The position numbers were made by a program, and so were the translations under genes. Below are positions 9,602 through 53,372 of a DNA stretch of 64,000 nt, one piece after another. Source of the stretch: Spirochaeta thermophila DSM 6578. GTDB lineage: Bacteria; Spirochaetota; Spirochaetia; Winmispirales; Winmispiraceae. The notes under the pieces are model-generated. The model did no database searches. It saw only the letters and a program-made list of their open reading frames with translations, and had not been told where the DNA came from. Location of the stretch: positions 930,001-994,000 of the forward strand of contig NC_017583.1 in NCBI RefSeq assembly GCF_000184345.1. Reading direction: 5' to 3'. Position 1 is the first letter of the stretch; each line of letters starts with the position of its first letter.

Positions 9602-11959
9602 TTGCAGCGGATGTCCAGCTTTTCTTCGCCCATGCTCCTCGAGGTTCTGGAACACGTGCCGGTGGGGATGATCCTGCTCTCCCCCGAGGGGGACATCCTG
9701 GCTGCGAACGGCCGATTCCTCGATATGGTGGACTGGAGCGAGGAGGAGCTGGACGGGGTGAGGTTCCCCCAGATCATCTATTCATCGGACGAACCTGTGG
9801 TGAGTTCGTTCATCGATCGCCTCGCCCGCGGAGAGGCGCATCAGGCCGGCCTCCTGGTACGGGCGGCCCGTAAGGATGGGAGCATTGCCTGGTGGCGACT
9901 CTGGGGATTCTCGAGGGGAGCAGAGGTCCTCCTCGGGGTCTTCGACATCACGGATCAGAAGGTCACCGAGGAACACCTTCGGAAGGAGCGGGAGGAGGCG
10001 ATAAGGTCGGTGCAGTCCAAGTCCCGGTTCCTCGCCAACATGAGTCACGAGATACGCACCCCGCTTCACACGATCCTCGGTATGACGGAACTGCTCGAAG
10101 ACACACGTCTCGACGAGGAGCAGCGGGACTACGTGCAGCAGATCAGGTTCTCGGGAGAGGCCCTTCTCGCCCTCATCAACGATATCCTGGATTACTCGAA
10201 GATAGAGGCCGGAAAGCTCCCCATGGAGATCATCGACTTCGACCTCTACGAGGTGGTGGAGCAGGCCGTGGGTATGGTCTCACTCCAGGCGCACAAGAAA
10301 CACCTCGAAGTGGTGGTGGATATCGGTGAGGAGGTGCCCCGCAGGGTGAAAGGCGATCCCCTCCGCATACGCCAGATCCTGGTCAATCTGGCCAACAATG
10401 CGGTGAAGTTCACGGAGAAGGGGCATGTCTTCTGCCGTGTACAGCTCGTGCAGCAGAGGAAGGGAGTGGCGTGGGTGGCGTTCACGGTGGAGGATACCGG
10501 TATAGGCATACCCGAGAACAAGAAGCATAGACTCTTCCGGGTCTTCAGCCAGATCGACGAATCCACCACCAGGCGTTTCGGCGGTACGGGGCTCGGACTC
10601 GCGATTTCGAAGAGTCTCGTGGAGATGATGAAGGGTGAGATAGGGGTGAGAAGCAGGGAAGGGGAGGGGAGCTCTTTCTGGTTCCTGCTCCCCCTGCCGA
10701 TCGTGGAATCCTACGAACCACCCGTATCGCTTGGAGAGGTGGGAAGCCTCCTCCTCGTGGAGGACTACCCCCTCACCAGGAGGGTGCTCCACCGATACTT
10801 ACAGCGTTATTTCCCCCATATCGACGATGCCTCCACAGGAGCGGAGGCGCTCAGGAAGATGAGAGAACGGGCCGAACGAGGGGAGATATACGACCTCGTG
10901 CTGGTCGATCTCACCCTTCCCGGCATGGACGGATGGCAGTTCGCGAGCGAGGTGAACGCCGACAGGAGCATCAACGACACGCGGATGGTCCTCATGAGCC
11001 CCATGGGGGAGGGTGCAGAGGCGAAGATGAAGCTCCTCAAGTGGTTCGACGCCTACCTCGCCAAGCCGGTGAGGAAAGACGACCTCTATCGAACCGTCGC
11101 CAGGGTGGTGAACGAGGAGATGGAACTCGAAGGGGTGGAAGCGGAAGGGCCTGAAGGAGGAGAGGAAAGGCCCGCGGATGCAGGTAACTATCTCATCCTC
11201 GTGGCGGAGGATCACATAGTGAACCAGGAGCTCTTTTTCACCATCCTCTCTCGACTCGGTTACAGGGTCGAGCTTGCGGGCAACGGGAAAGAGGCGGTGG
11301 AGAAGGGGCTCGCGCTCAAACCCGACCTCATCTTCATGGACGTACAGATGCCCGAGATGAACGGCTACGACGCCGCCCGGGTCCTGAGGGAGCACGGATA
11401 TGAGGGGCCGGTGATCGCGGTGACGGCGAGCGCCTTCAGGGAGGACAGGGAACGGGCCCTCGCGGCCGGTATGAGCGATTTCCTTCCCAAACCATTCAAG
11501 AAGAAGGATCTGCTCCCTGTGCTCCAGAAGTGGCTGTCGGATACCAAGAGGGATGGACCCGCTCCTGAGTCGGCTTCGACCGAGACCGTCCCCGTCGAGA
11601 AAGTGGGAGAAGAGGATCTCTTCGACCTCACCGGGGCGAGAGAGGCCTTCATGGATGACATGGACGTGCTCTCGAACGTGATCGATCGGTTTTTCGAGCG
11701 ACTTCCCCAGCAGTTCGGCCGGATAGAGGAAGCCCTCTCGAGGCAGGATGCCGAGACGGTGCGTACCGAGGCCCATGGGATCAAGGGGGGGAGTTGGAAT
11801 CTCTCCATGAAGTTGTTGGGCGACCTTGCGGCCGAGATGGAGACGGCGGCGAAGGAGGGGGATATCTCCCGGTGCAAGCAGCTTTTTCCCCGTCTCAAAC
11901 AGGGCTTCGTACGGACGAAGGAGTACGTGGAACGCAGCCTCTCCCCCCAGCACTCCTAG
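9602..11959 (+). CDS. Hybrid sensor histidine kinase (PAS-HisKA-HATPase-REC-REC-HPt)
   Basis: This is a 785-residue soluble phosphorelay kinase. Domains in order are: PAS (about 12-125), HisKA with the phospho-acceptor H149 in NMSHEIRTPL, and HATPase_c (N box with NNAVKFTE, G boxes DTGIGIP and GGTGLGL). Two receivers follow (VEDYPL/VDLTLPGMDG and AEDHIVN/FMDVQMPEMNG), then a C-terminal HPt domain with H725 in EAHGIKGGSW. No membrane segment is visible, so it senses a cytoplasmic signal, probably through PAS. A TTG start at 9602 is preferred because AGGAGG ends six bases before it; ATG at 9611 is possible. It follows the double-receiver gene by ten bases and is probably co-transcribed. All key phosphorelay residues appear intact. 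Confidence 0.93.
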   Translation: MQRMSSFSSPMLLEVLEHVPVGMILLSPEGDILAANGRFLDMVDWSEEELDGVRFPQIIYSSDEPVVSSFIDRLARGEAHQAGLLVRAARKDGSIAWWRLWGFSRGAEVLLGVFDITDQKVTEEHLRKEREEAIRSVQSKSRFLANMSHEIRTPLHTILGMTELLEDTRLDEEQRDYVQQIRFSGEALLALINDILDYSKIEAGKLPMEIIDFDLYEVVEQAVGMVSLQAHKKHLEVVVDIGEEVPRRVKGDPLRIRQILVNLANNAVKFTEKGHVFCRVQLVQQRKGVAWVAFTVEDTGIGIPENKKHRLFRVFSQIDESTTRRFGGTGLGLAISKSLVEMMKGEIGVRSREGEGSSFWFLLPLPIVESYEPPVSLGEVGSLLLVEDYPLTRRVLHRYLQRYFPHIDDASTGAEALRKMRERAERGEIYDLVLVDLTLPGMDGWQFASEVNADRSINDTRMVLMSPMGEGAEAKMKLLKWFDAYLAKPVRKDDLYRTVARVVNEEMELEGVEAEGPEGGEERPADAGNYLILVAEDHIVNQELFFTILSRLGYRVELAGNGKEAVEKGLALKPDLIFMDVQMPEMNGYDAARVLREHGYEGPVIAVTASAFREDRERALAAGMSDFLPKPFKKKDLLPVLQKWLSDTKRDGPAPESASTETVPVEKVGEEDLFDLTGAREAFMDDMDVLSNVIDRFFERLPQQFGRIEEALSRQDAETVRTEAHGIKGGSWNLSMKLLGDLAAEMETAAKEGDISRCKQLFPRLKQGFVRTKEYVERSLSPQHS

Positions 11960-12068
11960 AGTGGAAGCGCATTCTTCTTTCCCCTTTTGCTTTTTTGCGA
12001 TACTATATCTACCGTGATCAGGACGTTCTGAGTGCTCGCTGTACACCTTTAGTAGAGAAGGAGCAGGT

Positions 12069-13394
12069 ATGCAGTACGAGGAACTGGGACTACATCAGTA
12101 CATCGCGCGACCGCTCTCTCAATCCGGGTATCTCGAGCCTTGGCCGGCCTTCATCCATCTCATGGAGCGGTATCGTGAAAGGCGGGATGCCCTCTTCGAC
12201 GCCCAGTATCTCCACGCCCGGGTGGCGGCCTATGTGAGCATGGCCTATCAGAGCCTCCTCGATGCAGAGCATGCGGAGAAGAAGGCGCTCATTCTGGTGC
12301 CCATCCATGAACTCGAGAACCTGGTCCATCATGAGGCGGAGGTGATCGGTCGTTACCTGGAGTACAGGTGCGGAATCGCCGGACGGAGCGAGGTGACACG
12401 GGCTCCAGAGCGGTATCAGCTCCTGGTGGGTGTTCCACGGACCGTGCGCTCCATGATGGAGCGGGGGCAGATCGATCCCGCTTCCCTCACCTGCCTCGTA
12501 GTCGATGAGGCGCACAGGATGCTCCTCGACGACAGCCTCTACGAAGTCCTCGATCTCCTTCGGCCTCACCGATCGGAGCGTCTCTCCTATTTCTTCTCTT
12601 CTGTCGTTTCTCTGGAGATGCGGAATCTCGCGTGGAAGTACGCCGATCATCCCGAGGAGGTGAGGCCGAGGCCCTCCATCTCCATCCTTTCGGGCGTGGA
12701 GGAGAGGGTCTACCATCTCGCAGGGCACAGGAAACTGAAAGCCCTCGAGGCCCTCCTCAGGCGCTTCCCCTCCCACGACACCATCGTCTTCACCGGCGGC
12801 GACGAGGTGAGCCAGCAGGTCGCTGGGGCCCTCCTCATCGGCGGCATCAAGAACTACTGCGTCACCGGCGATATGCCCCGGCACAAGGGATTCCTTCTCG
12901 GTGAACCTCTCGGGGCTTCCGGCCGGGTAGTGGTCGTGACGTCCGAGTCCACTTCCCGGAACCTTCACGTGCCCGCCTTCTCGATGGTGGTGAACTATCA
13001 GATGCCTGTCTCCGGCGACTCCTATCTTTACCGGATTCGATTTCTCGAGGAGGGGGTCGGCCCCCTCTGCATTTCTCTGGTCTCGGAGGCGGACGCCTAC
13101 GACTACCTGGAGACGGAACTCGACATGGAAAGGCACCTCCCCTCCTTCCCTCTGGGGGAACTCCTGGAGGGCTCCCTGAGGGCCGGGGAGAGGCGGCGGA
13201 GAAGCGGATCCGGCAGGAAGAGAGAAAGGAGACGTCGTCCTCCTGGGGGAAGACATCCGGAAGGAGGACAGAGCAGGGGAGGGGAGAGACAGGTGAGGAG
13301 GGAAGAGATCGTCTCCTCCCGACCTCCTCTCAGGGGGAAGTCTCTCGAGGAGAGGGTTGCGTACTACCAGAGAAAGTACGGTGAGAGATTCTGA
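12069..13394 (+). CDS. DEAD-box helicase-like protein with degenerate ATPase motifs
   Basis: This 441-residue protein aligns along its length with RhlE/RhlB-type DEAD-box RNA helicases. The Walker A motif (AQTGTGKT in active enzymes) is AQYLHARV at residues 45-52, so the catalytic Lys is gone. Motif Ia is PIHELE instead of PTRELA. Motif II is DEAH at 146-149. Motif III SAT is SSV. Motif VI HRxGRxxR reads YRIRFLEEG, losing the arginine fingers. The final 75 residues are a basic Arg/Gly-rich tail typical of RNA-binding extensions. What is seen implies no ATP hydrolysis; an RNA-binding or scaffolding role is inference. GGAG precedes the ATG. The frame is intact, which argues against a plain pseudogene. 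Confidence 0.75.
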   Translation: MQYEELGLHQYIARPLSQSGYLEPWPAFIHLMERYRERRDALFDAQYLHARVAAYVSMAYQSLLDAEHAEKKALILVPIHELENLVHHEAEVIGRYLEYRCGIAGRSEVTRAPERYQLLVGVPRTVRSMMERGQIDPASLTCLVVDEAHRMLLDDSLYEVLDLLRPHRSERLSYFFSSVVSLEMRNLAWKYADHPEEVRPRPSISILSGVEERVYHLAGHRKLKALEALLRRFPSHDTIVFTGGDEVSQQVAGALLIGGIKNYCVTGDMPRHKGFLLGEPLGASGRVVVVTSESTSRNLHVPAFSMVVNYQMPVSGDSYLYRIRFLEEGVGPLCISLVSEADAYDYLETELDMERHLPSFPLGELLEGSLRAGERRRRSGSGRKRERRRRPPGGRHPEGGQSRGGERQVRREEIVSSRPPLRGKSLEERVAYYQRKYGERF

Positions 13395-13399
13395 CACGC

Positions 13400-13428
13400 T
13401 TGCCTGTCGTGGTGTTTTTCGATAGGAT
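13400..13428 (+). promoter_or_regulatory. Predicted promoter of the CheY-like gene
   Basis: TTGCCT (13400-13405) and TAGGAT (13423-13428) are 17 bases apart in the 69-base gap before the CheY-like gene. The predicted start site is about 29 bases upstream of the ATG. The match is moderate. Confidence 0.45.
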
Positions 13429-13463
13429 CGTGGGAACAGACGAGTGTACATGAGGAGCGGAGC

Positions 13464-13901
13464 ATGAAACTGAAAGGTGATCTCCCCGTCGGGGATCAAG
13501 CCGGAAAGTTCGAAGGGCGTAAACCGGATGGCACCCCTTATAAGATATTGATCGCGGACGATTCCATCTTCGTGACGAAACAACTGAGGCAGATCCTCTC
13601 CTCGGCGGGGTTCGAGGTGATCGGCGAGGCCAACACCGGGGAGGAGGCGGTGGAACTCTACAAGAGCCTCCATCCCGATGTGGACCTGGTGACACTCGAC
13701 ATTACCATGCCGAGAATGGACGGGATCACTGCTTTGAAGAAGATCATGGAATTCGACGCCGATGCACGTGTGGTGATCATAAGCGCCCTCGGGCGTGATG
13801 ATCTCGTGAAGACGGCCCTCCTCGAGGGAGCGAAGAACTTCATCGTGAAACCACTCAACAGAGAGAAGGTCCTCGAACGGATTCTCATCGCCTTGAGGTA
13901 G
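13464..13901 (+). CDS. CheY-like single-domain response regulator
   Basis: This 145-residue protein is a receiver domain with a 27-residue N-terminal tail and no output domain. Conserved residues are the acidic pair in IADDS, the phospho-acceptor Asp in VTLDITMPRMDG, the Ser/Thr switch (IISALG) and Lys in FIVKPLN. Its chemotaxis-CheY-like sequence (VIGEANTGEEAVELY) suggests flagellar or chemotaxis signalling, but no che genes are in the window. It may receive phosphate from the nearby hybrid kinase. GGAG sits just before the ATG. Confidence 0.88.
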   Translation: MKLKGDLPVGDQAGKFEGRKPDGTPYKILIADDSIFVTKQLRQILSSAGFEVIGEANTGEEAVELYKSLHPDVDLVTLDITMPRMDGITALKKIMEFDADARVVIISALGRDDLVKTALLEGAKNFIVKPLNREKVLERILIALR

Positions 13902-14011
13902 CCCGACCTTTCCAAAAATCTATAAAACCTCAAAGATCTCTAAAAAAAATAAGGTGATTACCATTTTTGAGCCACCTGTGGTATAATACCGAAGAGAGAG
14001 GTGGCACGGAT

Positions 14012-14773
14012 ATGGACGTCGTAAGTCTTTCAACACTTGCAAGCGATAGAGAGAAAACGGTCTCCTATCTGAGAGAGAAAGGTCTCCTCGTCACGTACAC
14101 CCGGTGTCCCTTCTGTGGAAGTGAGCATATAGGCGAGGTGAGACGAGAGAAGTACAAGTGCTACCAGTGCAGGAAAGAGTGGAGCATACGACGAGGGAGC
14201 ATCTTCGAGGGGATGAAGCTCTCCTGGGAGAAGATCCTGTGGGCAATGAAGCTCTTTGAGATGGAAGTTACCGCCCACAAGGCGGCTTTGCAGTTACGGC
14301 TCTCCTATGAGGTGACGCTGAGGCTCTACACATTGTTTCGGAAGGCGATATGGGTCCACACCCAGAAGGAGGGGAAGAGCCTGCTCGAAGGTGAAGTAGA
14401 GATGGACGAAAGTTATTTTGGAGGAAAGAGAAAGGGGAAGAGGGGGAGAGGGGCGGCAGGGAAGATTCCTGTGTTTGGGATTCTCGAGCGAGGGGGAAAA
14501 GTGCAGGTGGAAGTGGTGGAGCAGGTAAGTGCGGAGGAGCTTGTACGACTGGCAGTGGCCAAAGTGAAGCGGGGATCGCTTGTGTATACCGACCGGTTCA
14601 AGAGCTATGATGGGCTTGTGAGCTATGGATTCAGGCACAAGCGGATTGATCACGGGAAGCGATTTGCGAATGGGAAAGTGTACATCAATGGGATAGAGGG
14701 GTTTTGGAGTTATGCGAAAGGGCGGCTGCTCCAGCATCACGGGGTGAGTGTAGAACGTTTTCCGGGACTGTAA
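14012..14773 (+). pseudogene. IS1595-type (ISXO2-like) transposase, 3' end lost
   Basis: The protein from ATG 14012 begins with a Cys4 zinc ribbon (CPFC...CYQC) and continues with the ISXO2-like DDE domain: MDESYFGGKRKGKRG, VYTDRFKSYDGL, and NGIEGFWSYAKGRL. It stops abruptly after VERFPGL, where the left end of an IS256-type element begins (14764). The normal C-terminus of this family is missing and is not found on the far side of that element. So the gene is a truncated remnant. An extended -10 (TGGTATAAT, 13979-13987) lies upstream. A leftward TTG at 13967 keeps the frame open but has no binding site. Terminal repeats of the original element could not be identified. Confidence 0.82.
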
Positions 14774-14856: not shown

Positions 14857-16101
14857 ATGAAGCGTGGTAACACACGCACACTGATTGAGACACAGTATAC
14901 CCTCTCTGATCTGATGAAACAAGTGGAAGACCAGCTACGGGAGGAGGTGCGCCACACCTACAAGACGTACCTGGAACACCTCCTTGAGACGCTGAGAGAG
15001 GAGGCAGTAGGACGACCACGATATGCACGAGGGGAGGCTGAGAAGGCACCGTACTACCGGTACGGCTACAGGAAATGGAAGAGCGTGCAGACCCCCTGGG
15101 GGCCGATCGAGGATGTACGCGTGCCCCGCATCCGCACCGGCGGGGGGAAGGAGGTGAAGCTGGTCGCCTATGAGCAGAGGCTCGTGGCCCTCGCCGAGCA
15201 GCTCCTTCTCGGGTATGTGGGAGGGATGAGCGCGCGGACGTGGGCCATCCTGTTACGGGAGCTGGGGATAGGCGAGGCTCACCCGCAGACACTCCTGCGG
15301 CTCATAAAGCGTCTTCGTGAGGAGAAGGAGCAGTGGCGGAGGAGGTCCCTTAGAGGAGTGAAGGCCCTTGTGCTGGATGGAGTGTGGGCAAAGAGGCGTG
15401 GGAGGGGTCAGAAGAAGCTGGTTGTCCTGAGTGCCGTGGGGGTGAAGGAGGACGGATCTCATGAGCTCCTCGACTGGGTCGTTGCGGAGCAGGAGGACCA
15501 GGCGAGCTACGAGCGACTCCTTACCAGGCTCTATGAGCGAGGGCTTCATGAGGTGGAGCTGGTGGTGGCCGATGAGGCTGAGGGGATCCGGCAGGCCGTG
15601 GAGACGGTGTATCCTGAGGCGAAGAAGCAGGTATGCCTCTGGCACCTGCAGGGTACGCTTGAGCAGAAGCTCCTGCAGGACATGGGGGAACGGAAGGGGA
15701 AGAACGCAGACCTCCAGAAGGAGAGGCGAGCTTTTCGAGCGGAGTACTGGAAGCTCTTTGAGGCAGGAGGGAAGGAGGACGCAGCACGTGCGTTGGAGGC
15801 ATTCGTGAAGAAGTGGGCGGCGAAGGCTCCCCGGATGACGGCCTCCCTCCTGTGGCGGAAGGACCGGCTTTTCTCCTATCTGGAGTTACCCTATGAGTGG
15901 AAGGAGAAGGTGAGGACGAGCAACCTTGCGGAGAACATGTTTCGACACATGAGGAGCTTTCTGCGGAGGTATCCTGGGTATATGAGCCGTGCCCATGCGG
16001 ATGAGGTGGTAGGCCTCTACGTGGTGGGCATGCAGGTGATACAAGAGGTGGGGAGATGCACCCCTTATCAACTCCAGCTCAATTTCAACACTCCCCCTTG
16101 A
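14857..16101 (+). CDS. IS256-family (mutator-type) transposase, copy A
   Basis: This is a 414-residue DDE transposase. The catalytic pattern is visible: first Asp in VLDGVWAKRR, second Asp in VVADEAEGIRQ, the family C-x2-H (CLWHLQ), and the last acid in TSNLAENMFRHMR. It recognises its own terminal repeats and moves the element by a copy-out mechanism (family knowledge). The N-terminal third differs strongly from copies B and C (for example MKRGNTRTLIET versus MTHVPATHSTL), while the remaining two thirds are nearly identical to copy B. The frame is intact and ends inside the right terminal repeat. Confidence 0.92.
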   Translation: MKRGNTRTLIETQYTLSDLMKQVEDQLREEVRHTYKTYLEHLLETLREEAVGRPRYARGEAEKAPYYRYGYRKWKSVQTPWGPIEDVRVPRIRTGGGKEVKLVAYEQRLVALAEQLLLGYVGGMSARTWAILLRELGIGEAHPQTLLRLIKRLREEKEQWRRRSLRGVKALVLDGVWAKRRGRGQKKLVVLSAVGVKEDGSHELLDWVVAEQEDQASYERLLTRLYERGLHEVELVVADEAEGIRQAVETVYPEAKKQVCLWHLQGTLEQKLLQDMGERKGKNADLQKERRAFRAEYWKLFEAGGKEDAARALEAFVKKWAAKAPRMTASLLWRKDRLFSYLELPYEWKEKVRTSNLAENMFRHMRSFLRRYPGYMSRAHADEVVGLYVVGMQVIQEVGRCTPYQLQLNFNTPP

Positions 16102-51842: not shown

Positions 51843-53372
51843 ATGAATGTTCTTCTTTCAGTTGCCCTTCCTCTTCTTGGTTTGGCGTTGGGGTGGACAG
51901 CTCGATGGCTGTATGCCAGATTTCAGCTTACCTCTGCGGAGCAGAGGGCTGAGAGAATAAAAGATGAGGCGGTAAAAGAGGCTGAGGCACGGAAGAAAGA
52001 GATTCTTTTCGAGGCACAGGAGCAGATCCACAAGGAGCGGCTCCAGCTCGAGAAAGAACTCCGTGAACGACGGGCCGAGCTTCAGCGGACCGAGCGGCGT
52101 CTCCTGCAGAAGGAGGAGACGCTCGAGCGAAAACTGGCAGCGGTGGAGCGGAGAAACGAAGCCCTTGCGGACCGAGAGAGGTTGCTGGCGGAAAAAGAGA
52201 CGGAACTTGGACGACGGGAACAAGAGATCGAGAGCGAACTGGAACGGATTTCCGGACTGACCAGGGAAGAGGCCCGGTCGCTCATCATCTCGCGGCTCGA
52301 GGAAGAGGCGAAGCGGGATGCCCAGATCCTCGTGAACAAGATCGAGGAGGAGGCCAGGGCCACGGCGGAGCGCAAGGCCCGTGACGTGTTGGTGAGCACC
52401 ATGCAACGCATCGCCACCGATGTGACGGCCGAGGTCACCGTGACCACGGTGAGCCTTCCCAACGATGAGATGAAGGGGAGGATCATCGGCCGGGAGGGAC
52501 GGAACATCCGTACCCTCGAGACCCTCACGGGCGTGGATATCATCATCGACGATACGCCCGAGGCCGTGGTGCTCTCGTGCTTCGACCCGGTGAGAAAGGA
52601 GATCGCCCGCATCTCTCTGGAGCGCCTCATCGCGGACGGACGGATCCATCCCGCCCGTATCGAGGAAGTTGTCCACAAAGTGACCAAAGAGCTGAGCCAA
52701 ACCATCTACGAGGAAGGAGAGAAGGTGCTGTTCGAGCTGGGGATACACGATTTTCCCCCTGAGGCGGTCCAGGCCCTGGGACGCCTCAAGTATCGTACGA
52801 GCTACGGCCAGAACGTCCTTGCCCATACCAAAGAGGTGGCCGTACTCGCCGGCATGATCGCCGCCGAGGTGGGAGGTGACCCCATGATCGCCAAACGGGG
52901 GGCGCTCCTCCACGACATCGGCAAGGCGATCGAGTCCGATGACGACAGCACGCACATCGAGCTCGGGATAGAGCTCGCCAAGCGCATGGGCGAGGACAGC
53001 AGGGTGATCAACTGCATCGCAGCGCATCACGGGGATGTGCCGCACACGTGTCCCGAGTCGGTGATCGTCCAGATCGCCGACGCCATCTCCGCCTCGAGAC
53101 CGGGGGCGAGAAGGGAGTCGCTCGAGAACTACATCAAGCGCCTCGAGCAGCTCGAGAAGATCGCGGAAGGGTTCTCCGGAGTGGACAAGGCCTTCGCGAT
53201 CCAGGCGGGCAGGGAGATCAGGATCATGGTCAACAACGACCTGGTCGACGACGCCGGGGCCCGGGAGCTCGCTCGGGAGATAGCCCGGAAGATCGAGGAG
53301 GATCTCCGGTATCCCGGTCGGATCAAAGTGACCATCATCCGGGAGACCCGGGTGGTCGAGTACGCCCGCTAG
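51843..53372 (+). CDS. rny: Ribonuclease Y
   Basis: This 509-residue membrane-anchored endoribonuclease starts decay of many mRNAs. Residues 1-20 are a TM anchor; a long coiled coil runs to about 200. The KH domain carries [21 protein letters not shown], and the HD domain carries the metal motif [11 protein letters not shown] and HHGD. The downstream ymdB neighbour is the conserved context. The ribosome binding site is GGAGGGAGC. A strong terminator follows the gene. Confidence 0.96.

Follow-up and report, generated by a model that had tools for sequence, protein, structure and literature searches.

Utp25 (Def), a protein of the eukaryotic SSU processome, has been presented as the first pseudohelicase to be fully validated (PMC9539457), and in bacteria the PriA protein of Deinococcus radiodurans is a pseudohelicase which keeps DNA binding and the contact with DnaB (PMC4504706). 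The interaction of CshA with RNase Y is known in Bacillus subtilis (PMC5289998), and HrpA has been reported as the only putative RNA helicase of Borrelia burgdorferi (PMC3868530). The DEAD-box helicases of bacteria belong to complexes for RNA decay and ribosome assembly, where the effects of the motor are hard to separate from those of the presence of the protein. In the literature searched on pseudohelicases and degenerate DEAD-box proteins, the coverage of which left out most subscription papers, no case of a bacterial DEAD-box pseudohelicase was found. Here we describe a gene of the heat-loving spirochaete Spirochaeta thermophila DSM 6578 which, at the level of its sequence, is such a case, the catalytic motifs being lost and the gene being kept by selection.

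The gene, its predicted fold and its neighbours

The window, the whole stretch of 64,000 nucleotides that was analyzed, comprises positions 930001-994000 of the complete 2,560,222-bp genome. The gene (ORF 12069-13394, forward strand) starts with an ATG at position 12069 of the window, its stop codon ends at 13394 and it encodes a protein of 441 aa. A Shine-Dalgarno-like sequence, AGAAGGAG (12056-12063, +), lies 5 nt before the ATG. A congener (G001, genome of 2,472,645 bp) carries a collinear copy which is 93% identical and shows the same motif losses; the upstream intergenic region is 97% identical in this congener with AGAAGGAG retained, and the flanking intergenic regions are 96%–97% identical between the two genus genomes. 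An earlier note on this DNA had claimed an intact frame and a good ribosome binding site, and both were found in the congener as well. No site was found in a scan of positions 11850-13500 for a sigma-70-like promoter, and an overlapping antisense ORF of 527 aa was set aside as an artefact of GC-rich sequence.

The protein was matched by the Pfam DEAD model (E=6e-11) and, over its full length, by the NCBIfam RhlB model (E=7e-28), in line with the RhlE/RhlB-type similarity claimed earlier, but the latter match scored 97 bits against an equivalog cut-off of 564. Among solved structures in the PDB, CshA was the closest by sequence. The AlphaFold model had a mean pLDDT of 82, with the RecA domains mostly at 90+, and adopted a two-RecA-domain helicase fold for which Foldseek gave CshA, DbpA and eIF4A as the nearest structures. 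The Pfam and RhlB models and Foldseek thus agree on two RecA-like domains of the DEAD family; because the AlphaFold input alignment consisted mainly of intact or active helicases, the fold is partly imposed by it and is supported rather than independently proven.

In both genus genomes the gene lies between a hybrid histidine kinase gene (9602-11959) and the gene of a CheY-like regulator (13464-13901). In a family relative (G002) the orthologous kinase and CheY genes are present with no copy of the ORF between them; in that genome (G002:C2:380000-396000, L062) adenylate/guanylate cyclase-type and cNMP-binding/HATPase proteins are encoded in the interval. Just downstream of the CheY gene in the window are two transposase genes, of IS1595 type (13967-14773, +) and Mutator type (14857-16101, +). 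Collinearity with a 16-kb stretch of the congener stops at about 13948, which suggests an insertion or rearrangement at this point.

Helicase motifs and descent of the core

Matches to the protein at E<=1e-25 were obtained from 261 of the 395 genomes of the class Spirochaetia, and by its best models this orthologue group is RhlB-like. The motifs of the two genus genomes were tabulated against those of 44 orthologues from other Spirochaetia. Motifs Q to VI were essentially intact in all of the latter (44/44) and were degenerate only in the two genus genomes. The Q motif of the ORF 12069-13394 protein reads PAF, its Gln being lost, and motif I (Walker A; 12201-12224, +) reads AQYLHARV in place of SQTGTGKT with the P-loop Gly, Lys and Thr all lost, so that the ATP-binding signature of AxTGxGKT with a Q motif is absent. 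Motif Ia (12300-12317, +) is PIHELE instead of PTRELA, which removes a Thr and an Arg in contact with RNA, motif Ib (12429-12443, +) is GVPRT instead of GTPGR with the GG motif just before it deleted, and motif V (12939-12965, +) is TSESTSRNL instead of ATDVAARGL; the canonical RNA-contact motifs Ia, GG, Ib and V are therefore largely lost. Motif II (12504-12515, +) has become DEAH (DETH in the congener) from DEAD and motif III (12597-12605, +) SSV (SSA in the congener) from SAT, while motif IV is broken (IVFTGGD) and motif VI (13023-13049, +) reads YLYRI-RFLE in place of YVHRIGRTAR, away from the HRIGRTxR pattern.

The Walker A and motif III sequences were exactly as claimed in the earlier note, and the losses in the Q motif, Ia, GG, Ib, IV and V together with the altered motif II go beyond it. 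Its statement that motif VI has lost the arginine fingers needs to be narrowed; the last Arg is gone, as are the His, Gly, Thr and Ala, but R322 and R324 remain. Of the 106 positions with a conservation of 95% or more across the intact orthologues, 64 are gone and 42 are kept, the latter including D146-E147, R297, R322, R324 and many structural residues. A sequencing error or frameshift was ruled out as the source of these changes, since the same motif losses are present in two independent genomes. From the motif losses we infer that ATPase activity has been lost, and RNA unwinding has most likely been lost with it.

The helicase core has 26% identity to intact orthologues compared with 59% among the intact orthologues themselves, and in a tree a single very long stem branch leads to the two genus sequences, whose own tips are tiny. 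The core thus went through one drastic change and has stood still since, while the C-terminal motif (see below) stayed within the family norm. The alignment with orthologues covers the entire protein, and on the evidence of this full-length homology and the shared C-terminal motif ORF 12069-13394 is a degenerate orthologue of a DEAD-box helicase of RhlB/CshA type which is widespread in spirochaetes. It had been called a paralogue, which it is not; it is also the only DEAD-box protein found in its genome. Degenerate relatives were absent from the 44 orthologues inspected. None was seen when 84,980 species genomes were scanned twice, the first scan returning zero relatives and the second 80 loci that were motif-checked in part.

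A search of its own genome with the protein gave no match but itself, and neither here nor in the congener or the family relative did profile searches reveal a canonical DEAD-box RNA helicase. The other PF00270/PF00271 matches in the genome, which were named by reading the sequences and not by separate family scans, were read as Mfd, RecG, Cas3, PriA, type I restriction, HrpA, DinG, UvrB, SecA, PhoH-like and XPB-like proteins and a broken 120-aa SNF2-like frame, and the list of the congener parallels this one by ORF length. A paralogue with an active sister was ruled out, there being no canonical DEAD-box RNA helicase among these matches. The broken 120-aa frame, which has an SNF2-like C-terminal motif (G000:C1:1363500-1366000, L197), has interrupted frames nearby, lies about 7 kb from a type I restriction gene and resembles part of a pseudogene cluster. 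The family relative has lost the ORF 12069-13394 gene, which is therefore not essential across the family. Other members of the phylum may lack DEAD-box helicases too, as Borrelia burgdorferi is reported to have HrpA alone as a putative RNA helicase (PMC3868530), and the unusual part is the retention of an inactivated DEAD-box protein rather than the loss of the helicase.

Selection on the core, basic tail and C-terminal motif

The ORF is under purifying selection within the genus. Comparison with the congener gave a dN/dS of 0.176 by NG86 and 0.144 by YN00 (bootstrap 0.11–0.26), and the 82 nucleotide changes result in only 29 amino-acid changes compared with a mean of 58.6 when placed at random (minimum 46 in 2000 trials). 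Neither copy contains a stop or frameshift. The degenerate form is present in only two genomes which are close to each other (dS about 0.18), so that the selection test spans a short time. By part of the protein the dN/dS was 0.17 for RecA1, 0.08 (0.076) for RecA2 and 0.31 for the basic tail, and for the neighbouring genes it was 0.22 (kinase), 0.12 (response regulator) and 0.02 (CheY). The catalytic positions drift between the two copies while the rest is held; the changes A148T in motif II (DEAH/DETH) and V179A in motif III (SSV/SSA) fall at positions fixed in every intact helicase inspected, and such drift would be expected once selection on catalysis had gone.

These values, together with the retained frame, start region and Arg-rich tail, bear out the earlier proposal that selection maintains the gene. 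That proposal had also looked to other spirochaetes for the degenerate motifs and for purifying selection; the selection was found between the two genomes, but the degenerate motifs are confined to the genus and the orthologues elsewhere are intact.

Residues 368-420 (13170-13328, +) form an Arg/Gly-rich basic tail (17 Arg, 10 Gly, pI 12) which is predicted to be disordered. Between the genus copies 14 amino-acid changes fall in 65 tail residues and the region is still basic; the claim that the tail is preserved stands. As the RNA contacts of the core (Ia, GG, Ib and V) are largely lost, any RNA binding by the protein, as put forward in the earlier note, would be confined to this tail, and residues 368-420 may perhaps serve that purpose.

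Beyond the tail is the C-terminal motif SLEERVAYYQRKYGERF (13341-13391, +), with a predicted helix at residues 426-437, which is shared with intact orthologues by alignment and profile. Nearly all of the intact orthologues examined have the consensus LEERxxYYxxKYGExF after an Arg/Gly-rich linker. Identity within the motif is 56% between the ORF 12069-13394 protein and intact orthologues and 50% among the intact orthologues, so that the motif, unlike the core, did not accelerate. A 20-position profile of the motif recovered the protein at E 9e-10 and, at E<=10, gave no second match in the genome. In the PDB the motif had no credible counterpart, and the literature searched yielded no description of LEERxxYYxxKYGExF. 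The last 21 codons show one nucleotide change and zero amino-acid changes between the genus copies, which by itself is weak evidence as there was only that one change. In most orthologues a short basic helix follows the motif (e.g. LLSRLFGKK), and this helix is absent from the ORF 12069-13394 protein. The motif is located near the C-terminal end of spirochaete RhlB-like helicases (loci L003-L020 and L090-L115) and is partly altered in L090, L092-L094, L096, L097, L099-L101, L106 and L115. It would seem that selection has let go of the motor while holding on to a docking peptide.

Possible role and comparison with known systems

The reading we favour, with a probability of roughly 0.6, is that ORF 12069-13394 encodes a pseudohelicase of RhlB/CshA-like descent which acts as a constitutive adaptor. 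The apparatus for ATP binding and hydrolysis would have been lost in the ancestor of the genus, and selection would keep the two-RecA-domain fold, the disordered basic tail and a C-terminal docking helix, LEERxxYYxxKYGExF. This helix would hold the same partner as in active helicases, and the basic tail would perhaps hold RNA. Since the C-terminal motif is shared with active orthologues and has not accelerated, it is the best candidate for the docking peptide.

RNase Y was present and RNase E absent in 8 of the 8 genomes tested. No RNase E/G was found in the S. thermophila genome, and RNase Y (KH + HD domains) is encoded within the window itself (51843-53372, +). These findings and the B. subtilis CshA precedent make an RNase Y-centred RNA-processing complex the leading candidate setting, as a guess, and by this analogy the ORF 12069-13394 protein is possibly a part of it. 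The wider proposal, that a lineage without DEAD-box RNA unwinding still uses its last DEAD-box protein, stripped of the motor, as an adaptor for RNA processing, is put forward tentatively and at somewhat less than even odds. If true, the docking function of DEAD-box helicases would be selectable apart from their ATPase. Evolution seems to have separated the two here, with the motor gone and the end-piece retained, and the C-terminal motif would be a ready bait for finding the partner.

The open frame might instead be an eroding relic of a helicase that is no longer needed, possibly owing to the weakness of RNA structure at high temperature. The complete loss of the gene in the family relative, the extreme divergence of the core at 26% identity, the continuing drift of catalytic positions and the dependence of the selection test on two close genomes are all consistent with decay. 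We consider it unlikely, as the dN/dS of 0.18 has an upper bound of 0.26, amino-acid changes number about half of the random expectation, no stop or frameshift has appeared and both the start region and the C-terminal motif are kept. Selection could also act through the tail if the protein served to chaperone or anneal RNA and its core were a mere folded support, for which the pI of 12 and 17 Arg of residues 368-420 and the persistence of basic character through 14 changes would speak. The tail, however, is the least conserved part (0.31) and RecA2 one of the best conserved (0.076), from which the folded core seems to matter in itself, and we regard this explanation as distinctly unlikely.

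We give little credence to a role outside RNA metabolism, as a regulatory subunit for the hybrid kinase and the CheY-type regulators encoded next to the gene. The location in a block of signalling genes, pointed out in the earlier note, is real and is the same in both genus genomes. Several observations speak against a functional link: between its kinase and CheY genes the family relative encodes a cyclase and a cNMP-binding/ATPase protein instead, L067 as the intact orthologue examined does not adjoin kinases, and the conserved motif is inherited from the RNA helicase family. Hardly credible is a divergent yet active RNA-dependent ATPase which binds nucleotide without a classical P-loop. D146-E147 in motif II and R322/R324 near motif VI are kept, but nothing is left of the P-loop Gly/Lys/Thr, of the Gln of the Q motif, of SAT, of the residues of motif V or of the last Arg in motif VI, and 64 of the 106 strongly conserved residues are gone.

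A motor-less adaptor of this kind can be set beside several known systems. The spirochaete RhlB/CshA-like orthologues (L003-L020, L090-L115) share full-length homology, the C-terminal motif and the Arg/Gly-rich linker but have all motifs intact and mostly continue into the short basic helix. B. subtilis CshA (PMC5289998) is likewise a DEAD-box protein in an organism with RNase Y, and the best PDB match is a CshA; it differs in being an active ATPase which binds RNase Y, whereas the link of ORF 12069-13394 to RNase Y is a candidate by analogy. Borrelia burgdorferi (PMC3868530) is also a spirochaete, in which HrpA is reported to be the sole putative RNA helicase, but it kept no DEAD-box relic while the S. 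thermophila genus kept an inactive one. The D. radiodurans PriA is, like the present protein, a bacterial SF2 helicase whose motifs were lost in one lineage. It keeps nucleic-acid binding and a partner contact, the counterparts of which would here be the basic tail and C-terminal motif; it differs in being a DNA replication-restart protein and not a DEAD-box RNA helicase, and in having been shown biochemically. The likeness to Utp25/Def (PMC9539457) lies in a DEAD-box fold that selection retains although its motifs are vestigial, in dispensable ATPase motifs and in a disordered extension. Utp25 is an essential eukaryotic ribosome-assembly factor and shares its cell with many other helicases, whereas the ORF 12069-13394 protein is bacterial, has an inherited C-terminal motif and comes from a genome in which no other DEAD-box RNA helicase was found.
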